Positions 8,892 to 18,577 of a stretch of 64,000 nt of DNA are shown here, one piece after another (the stretch's first letter is position 1; each line of letters starts with the position of its first letter). Source of the stretch: Algimonas arctica (GTDB taxonomy: Bacteria; Pseudomonadota; Alphaproteobacteria; Caulobacterales; Maricaulaceae); assembly GCF_014652695.1 (NCBI RefSeq), contig NZ_BMZH01000002.1, forward strand, positions 300,656 through 364,655. Reading direction: 5' to 3'. Under the pieces are notes generated by a model. That model made no database searches, was not told the DNA's origin, and was given only the letters and a program-made list of their open reading frames with translations. A program made the translations under genes and the position numbers.

Positions 8892-9947
8892 TTAGCCTCT
8901 TAGCTCTGAGTAATCAAAATTACGGATCCGGTTGATCACCGCGTGGACATCATCAATTTGAACGTCCGGGGTTACCCCGTGACCCAGATTGAAAATATGC
9001 GGTCCATCCGCCCCGTCACGTAACACCTGATCCACGGCACGTAACAGAGGTCGGCCCCCCGTCCGCAGTGCCAACGGATCAAGATTGCCTTGCACGGCCA
9101 TACCGTCTGGGATCGTCGCCCTGAAATCGCCCAACGGAACATCTGTCCCGGCGGCAATGGCAGTGATCCCGGTTTCGTGGGCATAACGAATAGCATTTAA
9201 TCCGGCTCCGCGTGGGAAACCCATAATAGGAACCGTGATTCCGGCGGCCCGAACCTTGGTAATAATATCCGCTGTTGGGCGTAAAACGAGGCGATCAAAC
9301 AGGTCCGGCGATAGCCCTTCTGCCCAGCTCTCAAAAATTTTCAAGACATCTGCCCCTGCGCCGGCTTGTGCGATAAGATAATCGGCGGAGCTTTCGACGA
9401 GCGCGTGCATGAGGGCTGCCATGGCTTCGGGTTGCTCATAGGCGAAGCGCTTAGCCTGTTCCTTATTCGGGGTGCCCTTACCCTCGAGCATATAGGTCGC
9501 CACGGTCCACGGACCGCCACAAAAGCCGATTAGTGCTTTCGACGGATCAAGCTCTGCGCGGACCTTCGCCACTGTTTCGTAAACCTGTGACACCCGGTCA
9601 GCCGCTCCGCTTACGGTGAGCGCATCAATTCCAGCGGCATCAATCGGGTCCAATGTTGGACCGACGCCTTTGACGAATTCAACCTGACGTCCGAGACCAA
9701 TGGGGATCAACAGGATATCAGCAAACAAGATAGCTGCGTCCATATCGTATCGACGAACCGGTTGAAGTGTGACCTCTGCGGCTTTGTCCGGGGAGAAACA
9801 GAAATCTATGAAATCATGGGCGGTCGCCCTGATTTCCATATATTCCGGCAAATGGCGTCCCGCTTGGCGCATAAACCAAATCGGCACGCTTTCGACGCGT
9901 TCGCCCCGTAGAGCACGAAGGATAGGGTTGTTGAGATCAGTTTTCAT
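8892..9947 (-). CDS. hemE: Uroporphyrinogen decarboxylase
   Basis: Decarboxylates uroporphyrinogen III to coproporphyrinogen III. Visible motifs are PIWFMRQAGRHLPEY with the substrate-binding Arg pair, AILFADILLIP with the catalytic Asp, GFCGGPWTVATYMLEG, and the C-terminal FNLGHGVTPD. From ATG 9947 it is 351 residues, the normal size; a longer frame reaching 10085 runs into non-coding origin DNA and is rejected. hemE borders the chromosome origin in Caulobacter and many other alphaproteobacteria, and the divergent neighbour here is ppsR, as expected. Confidence 0.96.
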   Translation of the reverse strand: MKTDLNNPILRALRGERVESVPIWFMRQAGRHLPEYMEIRATAHDFIDFCFSPDKAAEVTLQPVRRYDMDAAILFADILLIPIGLGRQVEFVKGVGPTLDPIDAAGIDALTVSGAADRVSQVYETVAKVRAELDPSKALIGFCGGPWTVATYMLEGKGTPNKEQAKRFAYEQPEAMAALMHALVESSADYLIAQAGAGADVLKIFESWAEGLSPDLFDRLVLRPTADIITKVRAAGITVPIMGFPRGAGLNAIRYAHETGITAIAAGTDVPLGDFRATIPDGMAVQGNLDPLALRTGGRPLLRAVDQVLRDGADGPHIFNLGHGVTPDVQIDDVHAVINRIRNFDYSELRG

Positions 9948-10401
9948 CTTGGTGAACCTACTAACCGAAATATCCTTGTCACGTCCCCTCTCTTTCAAAC
10001 TTATTTTTAATATAGAGGAAGTAGTAGAGCCTGTGAATTTGGGGATGATCTTAAGGTTTTGGTAAGAGGTGTTAACGGAGCTCAATAATTCTGTGGATTT
10101 AGAAATCTTTTGTTATCCATTCCACAGACTGGGTGTATCATGACGAAACAGTTGATGGCACTTAACTATCAGGCTTGGGAGTAATTTGGGGATAAATGAG
10201 TCCAGCTTCGATCTATCCCCATAGTTCACGGGATTACGAGTTAACCTTTGGGCCCCGTGAATGAAATTGGGAGTCGTTTCGATTCCGTGCCCGATTCGAG
10301 TCCTCCGCCTGTGGAAGTCTATTCGACTTGTGGACAGAGATGGACAAGTGGGGCTAGAACAACGCTGACTTCTGAATGAAAGACGTGTCAAAATTTTAAA
10401 C
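9948..10401. other. Probable chromosomal replication origin (oriC)
   Basis: A 454-base non-coding gap between divergent hemE and ppsR (RP001/DUF299), the same position as Caulobacter Cori. Degenerate DnaA-box-like 9-mers are visible: TGTGGATTT at 10092-10100, TTATCCATT at 10113-10121, TGGGGATAA at 10187-10195 (8 of 9), CTATCCCCA at 10213-10221 and TGTGGACAG at 10329-10337. AATTTGGGGAT is repeated at 10036-10046 and 10183-10193. An AT-rich segment lies around 10000-10015. TTAA-N7-GTAA at 10051-10065 is a near-CtrA site. Five GANTC sites fall within 10198-10302. No perfect TTATCCACA is present, so the assignment rests mainly on synteny. Confidence 0.75.
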
Positions 10402-11274
10402 ATGCCCGAGCGAAATCTCAATATTTCGACATGTTTCCATGTCCATCTTGTCAGTGATTCGACAGGTGAGACGCTCGTGGGGATGATGAAAGCGTCGACG
10501 GCGCAATTCCGCAGCGCCACGGCGCTTGAGCATTTGCATGCTTTGGTTCGGTCCGATTCTCAGATGGAACGGACTTTACTCATGATTGAAAACAAACCTG
10601 GCGTTGTTTTATATACGCTGGTTGATCCTGAAAAACGCAAACGTCTGGAAGAGTTTTGCACTAATCTTCATATTCCGCATGTCTCTATTCTGGATTCTAC
10701 TCTGGCTATGATGGGGCGCTATCTCGGGGTTACGACGACGGCGGAGGTGGGTGCACAGCGGACTTTGGATGCGGCCTATTATAATCGGATTAGTGCGCTT
10801 GATTTTGCCATGGTCCATGATGACGGGCAGCATATGGAAGGATTGGTCGATGCGGATATTGTTCTTCTCGGGATATCTCGCACTTCGAAAACGCCAACTT
10901 CCATCTATCTTGCGAACCGGGGCTATAAAACGGGCAATATTCCTTTGGTCCCTGTTGCGCCAAACGGTATCCAACTTCCGCCCATTATTGATCAGTTAAA
11001 ACTCCCTTTAGTGATTGGTTTGGTGGCGTCTCCGGACCGAATTGTTGAAATCCGGACCAATCGGTTGAAAGGTCTCTCCGCAACAGGGCGGTCTAACTAT
11101 ACGGATCAAACCTCCGTTCGGGATGAAGTACGCGATGCGAAACGCCTTTTCTCTCGCCGCGGTTTTCCGATCATTGATGTTTCTCGTCGGTCCATTGAAG
11201 AGACGGCCGCGCAGATCATCAATCTCTATAAACTTCACCGCCCTGAACAGGCGCTAAAGAGAGCGATGCAATGA
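10402..11274 (+). CDS. ppsR: Pyruvate, phosphate dikinase regulatory protein (DUF299)
   Basis: A bifunctional serine/threonine kinase and pyrophosphorylase family that regulates PPDK or PEP synthase. Motifs are the N-terminal HLVSDSTGETL, the P-loop-like GISRTSKTPTSIYLANRG, and the C-terminal RDEVRDAKRLF with FPIIDVSRRSIEETAAQII. At 290 residues it is full length. It corresponds to RP001, the first gene to one side of the Caulobacter origin. Its TGA overlaps the maf ATG (ATGA), starting an operon of ppsR, maf, aroE and coaE. No PPDK gene is in the window, so which target it controls is unknown. Confidence 0.93.
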   Translation: MPERNLNISTCFHVHLVSDSTGETLVGMMKASTAQFRSATALEHLHALVRSDSQMERTLLMIENKPGVVLYTLVDPEKRKRLEEFCTNLHIPHVSILDSTLAMMGRYLGVTTTAEVGAQRTLDAAYYNRISALDFAMVHDDGQHMEGLVDADIVLLGISRTSKTPTSIYLANRGYKTGNIPLVPVAPNGIQLPPIIDQLKLPLVIGLVASPDRIVEIRTNRLKGLSATGRSNYTDQTSVRDEVRDAKRLFSRRGFPIIDVSRRSIEETAAQIINLYKLHRPEQALKRAMQ

Positions 11275-14111: not shown

Positions 14112-15107
14112 CTAAGATGAGAGCAATCCCATCCGCGCGAGAAGCGCTTCCATGTGATCTAAGTCTTTGTATTTCAATCGAATTTCACCACCTCGAGCAC
14201 CGTGTCGTATATCGGCGGCATAGCCGATTGTGTCTCGTATCCGTTGTTCTAGAGCCTTAATATCAGCGGGTTTTCCGGGTTTGTGCGCATTGGGGTTACG
14301 GGCCGATTTATCATCACGGACCCAGCTTTCCGCCTGACGCACAGTCCAATCATTCTTGATGATGGCTTCTGCCAGCGCGTCTGGATCGGTTGCGACCAAT
14401 AGAGCCCGCGCGTGCCCCGCCGTGATTTTACCGCCCATTAATAACTCACGTCCGCGCTCGGTAAGTCCGGTCAGGCGTACGGTATTGGCGACATGGACCC
14501 GACTTTTCCCGATTGAGGTGGCGATGTCGGCCTGTGTGCGTCCGAACTCTTTGATTAGCCGTTCATAGGCGAGGGCTTCTTCCAGGGGGTTGAGATCGGC
14601 GCGTTGCACATTCTCAATGACACCAATTTCGAGTACATCCCGATCTGATAAATCGCGGATGATGATGGGGATTGATGTCAAACCCGCTTTAATCGCGGCG
14701 CGCCAACGACGTTCACCGGCCACAATCTGAAAATCAGCGCCGTCTTGCGCGGACTGGCTGTCAATTTTACGCACGAGGATGGGCTGTAAGACGCCCGTTT
14801 GTTGGATTGAGGCAATCAAATCGTCGAGTTTGTCTCGCTCAAACACTTTACGCGGTTGGGCCGAATTACGCATCAGGCGGGAGATGGCGACATTCTGTAC
14901 GCTGGGTTGTTGGCGCGGGGAGTCCGGGTCTTTGGGCGCATCAACAAGATTTGAAACGCTGTCTGGAACGGCCGATTTTGTTTCTAGCGACGTCTTGGCG
15001 TCGCTGATGGTTCCGTCGGTTTTAATTGGGCTGTCCGCGTCATTCAATCCAGCGTCATTCATTAACGCTGAGAGGCCACGGCCCAATCCTTTTTTACGTC
15101 CAGACAT
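14112..15107 (-). CDS. parB: Chromosome partitioning protein ParB
   Basis: CTP-dependent DNA clamp that loads at parS. The N-terminus KKGLGRGLSALMND is the ParA-interacting segment. The ParB/Srx domain includes IVAGERRWRAAIKAG, the arginine-rich CTP and DNA patch. A helix-turn-helix region follows (RTQADIATSIGKSRVHVANTVRL and ITAGHARALL), then a short linker and a C-terminal dimerisation domain. Length is 331 residues. It lies 24 bases downstream of parA. Three perfect copies and one near-perfect copy of its expected target TGTTTCACGTGAAACA lie 1-2 kb away. Confidence 0.96.
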   Translation of the reverse strand: MSGRKKGLGRGLSALMNDAGLNDADSPIKTDGTISDAKTSLETKSAVPDSVSNLVDAPKDPDSPRQQPSVQNVAISRLMRNSAQPRKVFERDKLDDLIASIQQTGVLQPILVRKIDSQSAQDGADFQIVAGERRWRAAIKAGLTSIPIIIRDLSDRDVLEIGVIENVQRADLNPLEEALAYERLIKEFGRTQADIATSIGKSRVHVANTVRLTGLTERGRELLMGGKITAGHARALLVATDPDALAEAIIKNDWTVRQAESWVRDDKSARNPNAHKPGKPADIKALEQRIRDTIGYAADIRHGARGGEIRLKYKDLDHMEALLARMGLLSS

Positions 15108-15131
15108 TATATAACCTTCTGATATATATAA

Positions 15132-15914
15132 TTAATTCTTACGTTCTGCGTGTTTACGCAGGATTTCACGGGCGAGACGGCGATAGGCTTTTGCGCCTTG
15201 GCTGGCAGGCTCATAGGTCGTGACAGGCTCGGCAAAACTGGGCGCTTCGGCGATCCTGACATTGCGTGGAATCACCGTTTCAAACACGGCGCGTCCAAGA
15301 TGGCTTCGGACATCATCGGCCACCTGCGCAGAGAGACGATTGCGCTTATCAAACATTGTCAAGACGACGCCGTCGATGGCCAATTTTGGATTGATGCTAA
15401 CCTTGGCCATTTCCACAGTTTTGAGTAGTTGTGACAGGCCTTCAAGGGCAAAAAACTCGCATTGCAAGGGGACGATGATAGACCGCGCGGCGGCTAAAGC
15501 ATTGAGAGTCAATAGATTTAGCGCGGGTGGGCAGTCGATCAGGACGTAATCAAACCCCATCTCTGCTTCATCGAGCTTTTGCGAAAGAATACGCGTTCGG
15601 CCTTCTGTTGTTCCGATTTCCATCTCTGCGGCGGATAAGTCTTGATGGCTTGGGAGGATGTAGAGGCCGCGTACGCGGGTCGGGCGGATGGCGTCATCCA
15701 ATGGCAAATCTTCCGTCATCACATGATAGGTCGATTTAGAGCGATCATCACGCGGGACCCCCAAACCTGTTGAGGCGTTGCCTTGCGGGTCCATATCGAT
15801 GAGCAGGACGCGTTGTTCCAACTCGGCCAGAGAGGCGGCAAGATTAATCGCGGTCGTCGTTTTGCCAACGCCGCCCTTCTGATTAACGATCGCCATGATG
15901 CGTTTAGGTGTCAC
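15132..15914 (-). CDS. parA: Chromosome partitioning ATPase ParA
   Basis: Deviant Walker A ATPase of the ParA/Soj family: KGGVGKTTTAINLAASL, then VLLIDMDPQGNASTGLG (Walker A'/switch I), VLIDCPPALNLLTLNAL (Walker B), and VVLTMFDKRNRLS. Together with ParB and parS it segregates origins. The start is best placed at GTG 15914 because an AAGGA sits eight bases upstream; GTG 15938 and ATG 15896 are alternatives. From 15914 it is 260 residues. It is the first gene of a parA-parB transcription unit, preceded by a spacer with two parS sites. Confidence 0.95.
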   Translation of the reverse strand: MTPKRIMAIVNQKGGVGKTTTAINLAASLAELEQRVLLIDMDPQGNASTGLGVPRDDRSKSTYHVMTEDLPLDDAIRPTRVRGLYILPSHQDLSAAEMEIGTTEGRTRILSQKLDEAEMGFDYVLIDCPPALNLLTLNALAAARSIIVPLQCEFFALEGLSQLLKTVEMAKVSINPKLAIDGVVLTMFDKRNRLSAQVADDVRSHLGRAVFETVIPRNVRIAEAPSFAEPVTTYEPASQGAKAYRRLAREILRKHAERKN

Positions 15915-16040
15915 AATGGCTGTCCTTAATGGCGTCACGACGGGGAAAACCTAGGGGCAGGAGCCCGAATCGTCTCGGATTTAATGCGCCTAAGCGTGGG
16001 CTCTGTCTATTGGACCAGATCGAATAGCGCTGAAAGACTG

Positions 16041-16056
16041 TGTTTCATGTGAAACA
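16041..16056. promoter_or_regulatory. parS: parS-like site 1 (15 of 16 bases)
   Basis: TGTTTCATGTGAAACA differs from the universal parS palindrome TGTTTCACGTGAAACA at one central base. It lies in the parA-rsmG spacer, 14 bases from a perfect copy. A single substitution at the centre may weaken ParB loading; it could instead be a secondary site. Confidence 0.8.
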
Positions 16057-16069
16057 TCGCGTGAGTTTA

Positions 16070-16085
16070 TGTTTCACGTGAAACA
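16070..16085. promoter_or_regulatory. parS: parS site 2 (perfect)
   Basis: Exact TGTTTCACGTGAAACA palindrome in the spacer between parA and rsmG. It ends one base before the rsmG stop codon region at 16087. A perfect 16-bp match beside parAB is essentially diagnostic of a ParB loading site. Confidence 0.95.
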
Positions 16086-16086
16086 T

Positions 16087-16707
16087 TTATTGTGGGGTTA
16101 AGCCTGAAATTGTCAAAATACAGCCGCTGTCATCCGATAGGCTCGGTGTTTGCTGCGCCTCAAAGCCCCAGTCTTTACGGGCTTCCGATAATTCAGCGCC
16201 GACTGCTTCCCCTTTAAGAAGAATTATCTGACCGTCTTTTGCGAGATGTTGCCACGCCAGCGGGAGGAGCCGGGGCAAGGGGGCAAAGGCACGCGCGGTG
16301 ATAACATCAGCATTCAATGTCGGAAGAGCCTCTATTCGGTCGGAATGGATGACTGTTGGGAGATTTGTTTCACGTGAAACAGTTTTCAAGAAGCTCGCCT
16401 TTTTTCCGGCGGACTCAATAAGGTGTACGGTTTGATCCGCGCCCTTATGTTTCGCCTCGATGGCAATCGCCAATCCAGGAAATCCAGCGCCGGATCCGAA
16501 ATCGACAATAGTCCGGGCTGAGTCAGATACGAGAGGTAAAACTTGTGCTGAATCAAGGGCGTGGCGTTGCCAGAAGTCAGGCAGTGATTTTGGCGCAACA
16601 AGATTTATCCGCGCATTCCATTTTTGTAGCAAGGCTTCCCACGTCCGATAATCCTCAAGACTATTCGGATGGATCGGCGCTTGGGCCGCAAATTGTTCTG
16701 GTGTCAT
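16087..16707 (-). CDS. rsmG: 16S rRNA (guanine527-N7)-methyltransferase
   Basis: Methylates G527 of 16S rRNA; loss gives low-level streptomycin resistance in several bacteria. The SAM-binding loop is IVDFGSGAGFPGLAIAIEA. The substrate-side motif HLIESAGKKASFLKTVSRET and VITARAFAPLPRLLPLAW are typical RsmG features. ATG 16707 gives 206 residues; a TTG at 16737 overlapping mnmG is less likely. Four bases separate it from the mnmG stop codon. The codons for VSRET are formed by a perfect parS palindrome at 16366-16381. Confidence 0.94.
   Translation of the reverse strand: MTPEQFAAQAPIHPNSLEDYRTWEALLQKWNARINLVAPKSLPDFWQRHALDSAQVLPLVSDSARTIVDFGSGAGFPGLAIAIEAKHKGADQTVHLIESAGKKASFLKTVSRETNLPTVIHSDRIEALPTLNADVITARAFAPLPRLLPLAWQHLAKDGQIILLKGEAVGAELSEARKDWGFEAQQTPSLSDDSGCILTISGLTPQ
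16366..16381. promoter_or_regulatory. parS: parS site 3 (perfect, inside rsmG)
   Basis: Exact TGTTTCACGTGAAACA embedded in the rsmG reading frame, where it supplies the residues V-S-R-E-T. It is about 280 bases from site 2. Confidence 0.95.
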
Positions 16708-16711
16708 GGGA

Positions 16712-18577
16712 TTAGGCCGCGAGTCTTTTTCGAACAAAGGCCAGGACGGCCATAAGGGAACCGGGCGTGACCCCTTCTATGCGTGAGGCCTGTCCCAAAG
16801 TTACCGGGCGGGCCGCGAGAAGTTTTTCACGCACCTCATTCGATAACCCGCCAATCGAGGCGTAATCTAAATCGTCCGGCAAGCGCAGACCTTCGTCGCG
16901 CCGAAACGCTTCAATATCTGACTGCTGCTTGTCAAGGTAATGCGCGTAAGTGGCATGAATTTCGGCATATTCACGGGCTCGTGGTGATAATGCCTCGAGC
17001 TCTGGAAAAATTGGCAGGAGATCGGGCATCGAAATATCTGGATAGGCCAGCAAGTCTTTGACGGTCCGCGCCTGCCCATCCTGATTAATTGAAAAGCCAG
17101 CGGTTTTTAGCTGGGACGGGGTTTTAGAGAGCGATCCAATAAGGGCTTTGGTCTCCGAAAACTCCTGTTGTTTCACGTGAAACATCGAGGTTCGGTGATC
17201 GGACACCATGCCCAGATCAATCGCCATCGGTGTGAGTCTCATATCGGCATTATCCGCGCGAAGGAGGAGGCGATATTCCGCCCGGCTTGTGAACATACGA
17301 TAGGGTTCGGTCACTCCTTTCGTAATCAAATCATCGATCATCACACCAATATAGGCTTGGCTACGATCCAGAATGAACGGCGCGCGCTTTTGGGAAGCTA
17401 AAGCCGCGTTCGAGCCCGCGATCAGGCCTTGAGCCGCTGCTTCTTCATATCCGGTTGTGCCGTTGATTTGTCCGGCAAGATATAGCCCCGGCAGAGATTT
17501 AACTTCCAGTGTCGCACGAAGCTCACGTGGATCGACATAATCATATTCGATCGCATAGCCGTAGCGTTGGACTTCGACAGATTCTAAGCCCGGTATAGTC
17601 CGTAAAAAAGCATCCTGAACATCTTCAGGCAGGGATGAGCTGACCCCATTGGGATAGACTGTGTCGCCATCTGGATTCCCCTGAAGCCCTTCAGGTTCTA
17701 GGAAAATTTGGTGGCGATTCCGATCAGCAAAGCGAACAACCTTATCCTCGATCGCGGGGCAATAGCGCGGCCCGCGCCCGGCGATTGACCCACCATAAAC
17801 TGCTGATTTATTTATATTTTTAGCAATTATCGCGTGCGTGTCTTCATTCGTATGGGTGATCCCACACGCAATTTGCGGTACAGTGATCCGGTCGCTCAGA
17901 AAACTAAACGGGACGGGGTCTGCGTCGGCGTCTTGAAGTTCAAGCGATGACCAGTCGATGGAGGACTTACGTAAGCGTGCCGGTGTTCCAGTCTTCAATC
18001 GACCCAAGCTCAGCCCCATACTGTAAAGCCGATCTGATAGGCCTTCTGCGGGGGCTTCACCCCAGCGACCCGCTGGCGTTCGGTCAGTCCCGATATGAAT
18101 GACGCCTTTAAGGAAAGTTCCCGTGGTGAGAACAATCCGATTGGACAAAAATTCGCGTCCATCTTCGGTCGTGAGACCTAAAAGTTGGCCATTATCCACG
18201 ATCAAATCATGGGCTGCGCCTTCAATAATCGTAAGATTATCTTGGGCCGCCATCTCGGCTTGCATCGCCGTGCGATAGAGAAAACGGTCGCTTTGCGTGC
18301 GCGGCCCTCGAACGGCCGGACCTTTGGAGCGATTCAGCAGTCGAAACTGTATGCCGGACGCATCGGCGACGCGGCCCATGACGCCGCCTAGCGCATCGAC
18401 TTCGCGAACCAGATGGCCTTTGCCGAGTCCGCCAATCGCTGGATTACAGCTCATTTCGCCAATCGTGGCCGCACGATGCGTTAAAAGGAGGGTCTTGGCA
18501 CCCAAACGGGCAGACGCACTCGCGGCATCGCAACCCGCATGGCCACCCCCAATAATTATGACGTCATAGGCATTCAT
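16712..18577 (-). CDS. mnmG: tRNA uridine-5-carboxymethylaminomethyl(34) synthesis enzyme MnmG
   Basis: FAD protein that with MnmE makes cmnm5U34 in tRNA wobble positions. The N-terminal dinucleotide loop [19 protein letters not shown] is followed by [37 protein letters not shown] and EGLNP-like [19 protein letters not shown] come next, and the C-terminal part includes [19 protein letters not shown] and [10 protein letters not shown]. Length is 621 residues, normal. A perfect parS palindrome at 17169-17184 encodes MFHVKQ here. It lies between mnmE and rsmG on the same strand, the classical order mnmE, mnmG, rsmG, parA, parB. Confidence 0.96.
17169..17184. promoter_or_regulatory. parS: parS site 4 (perfect, inside mnmG)
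   Basis: Exact TGTTTCACGTGAAACA in the mnmG frame, read as M-F-H-V-K-Q, a different frame from the site in rsmG. It is the copy furthest from parAB, about 800 bases beyond site 3. Confidence 0.95.

Follow-up and report, generated by a model that had tools for sequence, protein, structure and literature searches.

Does the 454-bp gap between the divergent genes hemE and ppsR hold the origin of chromosomal replication, and if so, which of its elements would open the DNA and which would keep it closed? Our analysis indicates with high confidence that the gap is a chromosomal oriC of the known hemE-COG1806 kind in a clade-specific arrangement; this confidence concerns the origin only and does not extend to the CtrA brake discussed below. 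The window, meaning the whole stretch of 64,000 nucleotides analysed here, corresponds to C2:300656-364655 of a draft genome of 49 contigs and 3.25 Mb. The gap is flanked exactly by the hemE start and the ppsR start and, with a G+C content of 0.43, is more AT-rich than the 4-kb profile of the window (0.515-0.581). The divergent arrangement of the two genes around 9948-10401, from which the original prediction set out, is confirmed by PF01208 and PF03618, as is its maf-aroE-coaE-dnaQ series beyond ppsR: Pfam assignments give maf, aroE, coaE and a dnaQ-type exonuclease, followed by parB and parA on the other strand. It had also correctly put parAB-parS about 4-7 kb away. By synteny, the gap occupies the same position as Caulobacter Cori. 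The main features of the locus are:

9948-10401, no strand: intergenic gap, probable oriC (contig skew minimum, box density, conserved module)
8892-9947, minus strand: hemE, uroporphyrinogen decarboxylase, left boundary (PF01208, E 1.3e-104)
10402-11274, plus strand: ppsR (COG1806, DUF299), kinase-pyrophosphorylase, right boundary (PF03618, E 5.1e-82)
14112-15938, minus strand: parB and parA (Pfam)
16041-17184, no strand: parS cluster, with perfect 16-mers at 16070, 16366 and 17169 and a one-mismatch copy at 16041

The perfect parS copies at 16366 and 17169 fall within the rsmG and mnmG reading frames.

The gap is rich in weak DnaA-box-like sites. With up to 2 mismatches to TTATCCACA allowed, six sites are found where the overall density of the window predicts 1.1; six is the top count among the window's 454-bp stretches stepped every 50 bp. 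Only one site lies within 1 mismatch. The absence of a perfect TTATCCACA from the gap had been stated beforehand and holds, and the 9-mers listed at the time are all present (TGTGGATTT at 10092, TTATCCATT at 10113, TGGGGATAA at 10187, CTATCCCCA at 10213 and TGTGGACAG at 10329). Outside the module described below, the individual boxes are:

10092-10100, minus strand: DnaA-like box AAATCCACA, 2 mismatches
10113-10121, plus strand: DnaA-like box TTATCCATT, 2 mismatches
10187-10195, minus strand: W-type box TTATCCCCA, at the second AATTTGGGGAT, 1 mismatch
10213-10221, plus strand: W-type box CTATCCCCA, facing the 10187 box, with ATCC occupying this position in many of the aligned relatives
10329-10337, minus strand: DnaA-like box CTGTCCACA, the best-conserved single box (genus alignment)

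The 11-mer AATTTGGGGAT does recur at 10036 and 10183, as predicted, and these are its 2 copies in the 3.25-Mb draft genome. The proposal attached to it, an origin-specific repeat in which GGGGAT replaces GTGGAT, fared less well. The GGGGAT repeat is present, but it is of the W-box type: TCCCCA is the known W-box of Caulobacter Cori (PMC4285127, quoting Taylor 2011), which rules out a new code. Alignment of the gap also spoke against conservation of the repeat. At site 1, TGGGGA is kept in the three nearest relatives (L004-L006), most other genus gaps having TGTGG or TGTGA, and site 2 is variable among the aligned genus gaps. Because both sites vary among relatives, we regard AATTTGGGGAT as a local match of two W-type sites rather than a conserved repeat. 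TCCCCA itself occurs three times in the gap (L003), and the 16 genus gaps together hold 11 copies of ATCCCCA, compared with 1.6 after shuffling.

The box at 10329 is far more constant. Its alignment column holds TGTGGACA in 14 of the 17 genus sequences (TGTGGACAG in 13) and TGTGGATA in two (L010, L011), while L006 has lost the box. More generally, TGTCCACA is found in all 16 genus gaps with hemE (0.3 expected from shuffles), with 17 of 18 copies in one orientation; CTGTCCACA occurs in 14 of these 16 gaps and a perfect TTATCCACA in 2, and the copies of the three words do not all stand at one place. The G at position 3 of the 10329-type box recalls the actinobacterial DnaA box TT(G/C)TCCACA (PMC4285127). 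The Caulobacter G-box TGATCCACA is absent from the 16 genus gaps, the window's included. As genome-wide markers of the origin, both perfect TTATCCACA (10 copies against 12 in the reversed control, none in the gap) and CTGTCCACA (18 against 22 in the control) were rejected; for the latter, only conservation within the gap is therefore informative. Conservation is highest in two parts of the gap, a module spanning roughly 10006-10089 and the TGTGGACA box close to ppsR. The original prediction had listed TGTGGACAG and the first AATTTGGGGAT without singling them out.

Three further features were considered. The DnaA of this genome carries the helix-turn-helix signature GGRDHTTV; judged by eye only, it is ordinary, and an altered DNA-binding domain was set aside. 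The IHF consensus has only one-mismatch matches, at 10052 and 10386, and we claim no IHF site. A single-strand hairpin of 10160-10330 reached a z of -2.2.

The 84-bp module (10006-10089) combines TAG DnaA-trios, tandem DnaA-like boxes that include the first AATTTGGGGAT, and a CtrA-like operator:

9995-10017, no strand: AT-rich DNA flanking the trios, probably the first to melt judging from sequence, AT-rich at this position in the relatives examined too
10019-10027, plus strand: DnaA-trio-like AAG-TAG-TAG, 3'-GAT-5' when read away from the boxes (conserved block)
10032-10048, minus strand: tandem DnaA-like boxes with an 8-bp step, holding the first AATTTGGGGAT, their spacing kept in most aligned relatives
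10051-10075, plus strand: CtrA-like operator TTAA-N7-GTAA-N6-TTAA, one mismatch to TTAA-N7-TTAA

The strongest conserved block lies on the hemE side and reads GAAGTAGTAGAG-CC-TGTGAATT-TGGGGATG at 10018-10047, with AT-rich DNA ahead of it. On the opposite strand, it comprises TCATCCCCA (10040-10048, 2 mismatches), AAATTCACA (10032-10040), GGCT (the AGCC spacer at 10028-10031 between trios and boxes) and then CTA CTA CTT. The box nearest the trios, AAATTCACA, has 3 mismatches, which counts against the assignment. As worded in PMC8287927, the rule for the basal unwinding system (BUS) calls for a DnaA box with at most 2 mismatches and, no more than 16 bp away, three or more NAN trios, 3'-GAT-5' being the commonest. 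Judged by eye, the module falls within this permissive rule, with a spacer of 12 bp and the trios TAG, TAG and AAG. TAGTAG itself shows no enrichment in genus or family gaps. Since the rule is permissive and TAGTAG by itself is not enriched, the case for the unwinding module rests on conservation.

We examined the gap in 70 family genomes (30 + 40 loci); ppsR is found in 127 of the 137 genomes of the family. Of these gaps, 63 have hemE opposite, one (L008) lies at a contig end, and six, all of genus g17, have no hemE in the stretch. Among the 80 loci listed for named genomes, 63 have hemE upstream and 17 lack it in the available stretch. A module matrix built from 17 genus sequences placed its best plus-strand match at a distance of 25-130 bp from the start of hemE in 52 of the 63 family gaps against 16.3 expected (16 training gaps included), and did so in 33 of 61 non-family gaps against 16.9 expected. 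Its score exceeded the best of 20 shuffles in 40 of 70 family gaps (17 training gaps included) and in 15 of 63 named gaps, with 9 of those 15 on the expected strand and with L111 and L112 belonging to the family; module scores are thus weak evidence outside the family. More specifically, L112 is a Robiginitomaculum-labelled MAG of the family whose module sequence equals that of L040 (G100:C60), and L111 is a Hellea-labelled MAG whose module sequence equals that of L027 (genus g7). In another assembly, G055:C20 and C13 carry one full and one partial ppsR, each with a module; this assembly is incomplete and perhaps a strain mixture.

For the 84-bp module in its entirety, a sequence model (R1) was derived from 37 sequences. 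At E<=10, it had one match in the genome studied here, in the gap itself (1.2e-14; 150 of 215 first-pass candidates scored). Across the family, E<=5e-5 gave 52 matches in 51 of the 137 genomes with 33 candidates scored per genome, and 14 of the 51 lie outside the training set of the model. All 52 matches share the strand of ppsR and precede it by 277-414 bp. The other 86 genomes gave no strong R1 match under stricter filters and 33 candidates per genome, some of these assemblies being without ppsR. Because of these 86 genomes, we consider the module layout confined to part of the family. Genera g4, g6, g8, g10-g15, g18 and g19 are R1-negative throughout, and some of their gaps carry an exact TTAA-N7-TTAA elsewhere. 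The TAG trios, the TTAA pattern at 10051-10075 and the GANTC cluster described below had not figured in the original prediction.

The third part of the module, the TTAA operator, starts two bases past the loading boxes. The gap has no exact TTAA-N7-TTAA, only the one-mismatch form at 10051. Most genus sequences follow TT[ACT]A-N7-[GT]TA[AG]-N6-TTAA. The pattern is locked to the module in the rest of the family: among the 42 family gaps outside the genus in which the module could be placed, TTAA-N7-TTAA with at most 1 mismatch stands at offset 33 in 16 gaps and at offset 54 in 16, against a median of 0 over offsets 0-199. Counted from the start of the module, the TTAAs of the window likewise stand at 33 and 54. 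Among 15 genus gaps, the form with at most 1 mismatch occurs at 33 in 4, and a TTAA at 53 or 54 in 13. No such offset lock was seen in the gaps outside the family. Searched genome-wide, TTAA-N7-KTAR-N5-7-TTAA occurs at 3 places, the gap and an identical word on two small contigs, with 11 in the reversed control. That word, TTAATGAAGCCTTAGTCGAGGTTAA, on contigs G000:C23 and C31 (L225, L226), is perhaps a repeated element. A looser form of the operator was found once in 760 kb of G045 and G000 stretches, at the origin gap of G045.

Which regulator would occupy this operator? The genome encodes CtrA (NF045991, 420.6 bits, cut-off 350) and a GcrA domain protein that scores above the Pfam cut-off and below the NCBIfam cut-off. 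Given that the gap is the origin, the operator is probably bound by phosphorylated CtrA. In Hyphomonas neptunium, CtrA recognises TTAA-N7-TTAAC and also binds beside the origin, as stated in PMC7200025, and exact TTAA-N7-TTAA sites stand at the two module offsets in other genera (5 and 4 of the 42 gaps). Both observations argue against another regulator, shared with the ccrM promoter, as the binder at an otherwise genuine oriC. Such a regulator would fit with the departure of most genus sequences from TTAA-N7-TTAA(C), and with exact sites at background in the genus gaps (1 of 16, against 0.5 expected); if the gap is oriC, we regard this alternative as less likely than CtrA. We retain CtrA as the probable binder.

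In relatives, the operator part of the module recurs away from the gap. Off-gap R1 matches at E<=0.1, weaker and partial, that cover most of the operator part number 25, and a ccrM gene lies near 17 of them and not near the other 8. A narrower selection (model start 40-45, end 71-81; n=18) holds 16 matches with a ccrM homologue and two without (L229, L232); by extrapolation, these 16 homologues start no more than about 115 bp away, and they run on the opposite strand from the match. Among the remaining 7 wider or shifted matches, six have no ccrM nearby; at the seventh, L239, the gene lies at a distance of about 150 bp and in the reverse relative orientation. In L212-L223, L227, L228, L230, L231 and L239, the operator part is directly upstream of ccrM, often followed by ATATCCAC, a DnaA-box-like word. 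Ten of these ccrM products were compared with the NCBIfam CcrM model, and all ten match it at 596-610 bits, below its curated cut-off of 830; the CcrM-like enzyme of the genome studied here, which has a RAMA domain, scores 602 bits against the same cut-off. Upstream of its own ccrM gene, the operator pattern was not found, which, like the 8 matches away from ccrM, counts against the CtrA reading. In Caulobacter, both ccrM and the origin are CtrA targets, as noted in PMC2877005.

The gap itself contains 5 GANTC sites against 0.81 expected:

10271-10302, no strand: four GANTC (CcrM-type) sites in 32 bp, with the fifth at 10198

In the aligned block, GANTC occurs four times in L004, three times in L006, once in L005 and 0-2 times in the other 13 genus sequences. 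Family-wide counts (113 against 100.6 expected) rule out GANTC enrichment as a general feature of the family; outside the family, the counts are 214 against 110.5.

The position of the origin was assessed by GC skew and parS. Over 204 kb of its own contig (C2:180656-384655), the cumulative GC skew has its minimum of -2148 at 307333, 3.3 kb from the gap, where the value is -2146, and it rises afterwards. At contig scale, the expected skew minimum is thus in place, and together with parS and the conservation of the gap in relatives it supports the predicted oriC between hemE and ppsR. The distance from the start of ppsR to the three perfect parS is 5.7-6.8 kb. G045, a genome of the same genus in a single contig of 3.17 Mb, also has three perfect parS 5.7-6.8 kb from ppsR, with no further parS within 2 mismatches elsewhere in 31 sampled 20-kb stretches. 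On the terminus side, its skew has switched sign by the stretch that begins at 1.96 Mb relative to the one that begins at 1.92 Mb, and the antipode of ppsR is at 1.943 Mb. Its origin-side minimum lies at 292 kb and ppsR at 358 kb, an offset of 66 kb that counts against the gap (L098, L099, L075, L076). No rRNA operon that could account for this offset was found within 280-340 kb; the offset possibly reflects a local rearrangement.

An origin elsewhere in the genome, with the gap as a fossil or a DnaA-regulated locus, would draw on this 66-kb offset and on the fact that the skew was computed on one contig of a 49-contig draft. We consider it very unlikely in view of the skew minimum so close to the gap on its own contig, the parS adjoining the gap both here and in G045, and the synteny with the experimentally mapped Cori, which at the time of PMC1914354 was the sole alphaproteobacterial origin mapped by experiment according to that source.

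A separate line of evidence comes from loci in which the boundary gene has changed. In eight g17 loci (L191-L198), other genes stand in for hemE: of the ORFs of at least 150 aa on the far side of the gap, the nearest is rho in five loci, a glutathione S-transferase gene in two and a response regulator gene in one. Two other g17 loci fall outside this count, L199 being cut by a contig end and L049 retaining hemE. In the eight loci without hemE, the module stays beside ppsR. Its retention after hemE was swapped speaks against the module as part of the hemE promoter and suggests that what remains constant across such exchanges is the unwinding module rather than hemE. It is highly improbable, then, that the gap is a mere divergent promoter region with regulatory or chance box-like words: two divergent genes do share it and most of its boxes carry two mismatches, but the module outlasts hemE in g17, and skew and parS converge on the same place.

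As a whole, these elements suggest how an oriC of this kind could work. The tandem boxes at 10032-10048 would be the loading site of DnaA, with the weak W-type boxes and the CTGTCCACA box at 10329 assisting; from there DnaA would extend along the TAG trios at 10019-10027 and open the AT-rich DNA towards hemE. Phosphorylated CtrA on the TTAA operator would block DnaA and hold off replication in the non-replicating cell type, and GANTC methylation by CcrM may mark the replication state. The grounds seen here are sequence, conservation, fixed spacing, skew and gene complement, and from these we infer every binding event, CtrA as the binder and the activity of the origin. We tentatively propose that the 84-bp module acts as an origin lock of fixed geometry, in which trios and tandem boxes are abutted by a CtrA-type operator whose half-sites stand about two helical turns apart, and that the operator also serves the ccrM promoter; a single regulator state might then directly gate both strand opening and replication-recording methylation. 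The genera concerned are g1, g2, g3, g5, g7, g9, g16 and g17, with Hellea- and Robiginitomaculum-labelled MAGs among the members of g7 and g16. Closure of origins by CtrA has been studied mainly in Caulobacter. A module of less than 100 bp, with a putative brake in fixed phase against a putative opening element, offers a substrate for the question of CtrA versus DnaA loading.

Within the literature covered, which included few subscription papers, no report came up, for this clade, of a DnaA-trio module with a CtrA site directly adjoining it. Comparison with the DnaA-trio BUS described in PMC8287927 shows a shared two-mismatch box, a second weaker box, the 12-bp spacer, three NAN trios and AT-rich DNA; here, in contrast, the boxes overlap by one base, only two trios are perfect TAG, and a TTAA operator lies on the inner side. 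With Caulobacter crescentus, the locus shares the hemE-COG1806 pair at Cori (PMC1914354), the W-box core TCCCCA (PMC4285127), and a genome that also encodes CtrA, a CcrM-like enzyme and GcrA. It differs from Cori in having CTGTCCACA in place of the TGATCCACA G-box and in lacking an exact CtrA site in the gap, whereas CtrA sites span the whole of Cori, as described in PMC1914354. One gap from a Caulobacter-labelled MAG (L162; not the C. crescentus Cori) has exact TTAA-N7-TTAA at 208, 256 and 465 of its 518 bp; unlike there, the CtrA-like operator here lies directly against the predicted unwinding module. The origin of Hyphomonas neptunium, compared on CtrA binding alone, has a CtrA site next to it by ChIP-seq (PMC7200025). 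Finally, PMC4468827 puts forward that CtrA is used at some marine Caulobacter origins and that this use probably evolved independently, and the clade-specific layout described here fits with such independently evolved use of CtrA at the origin.
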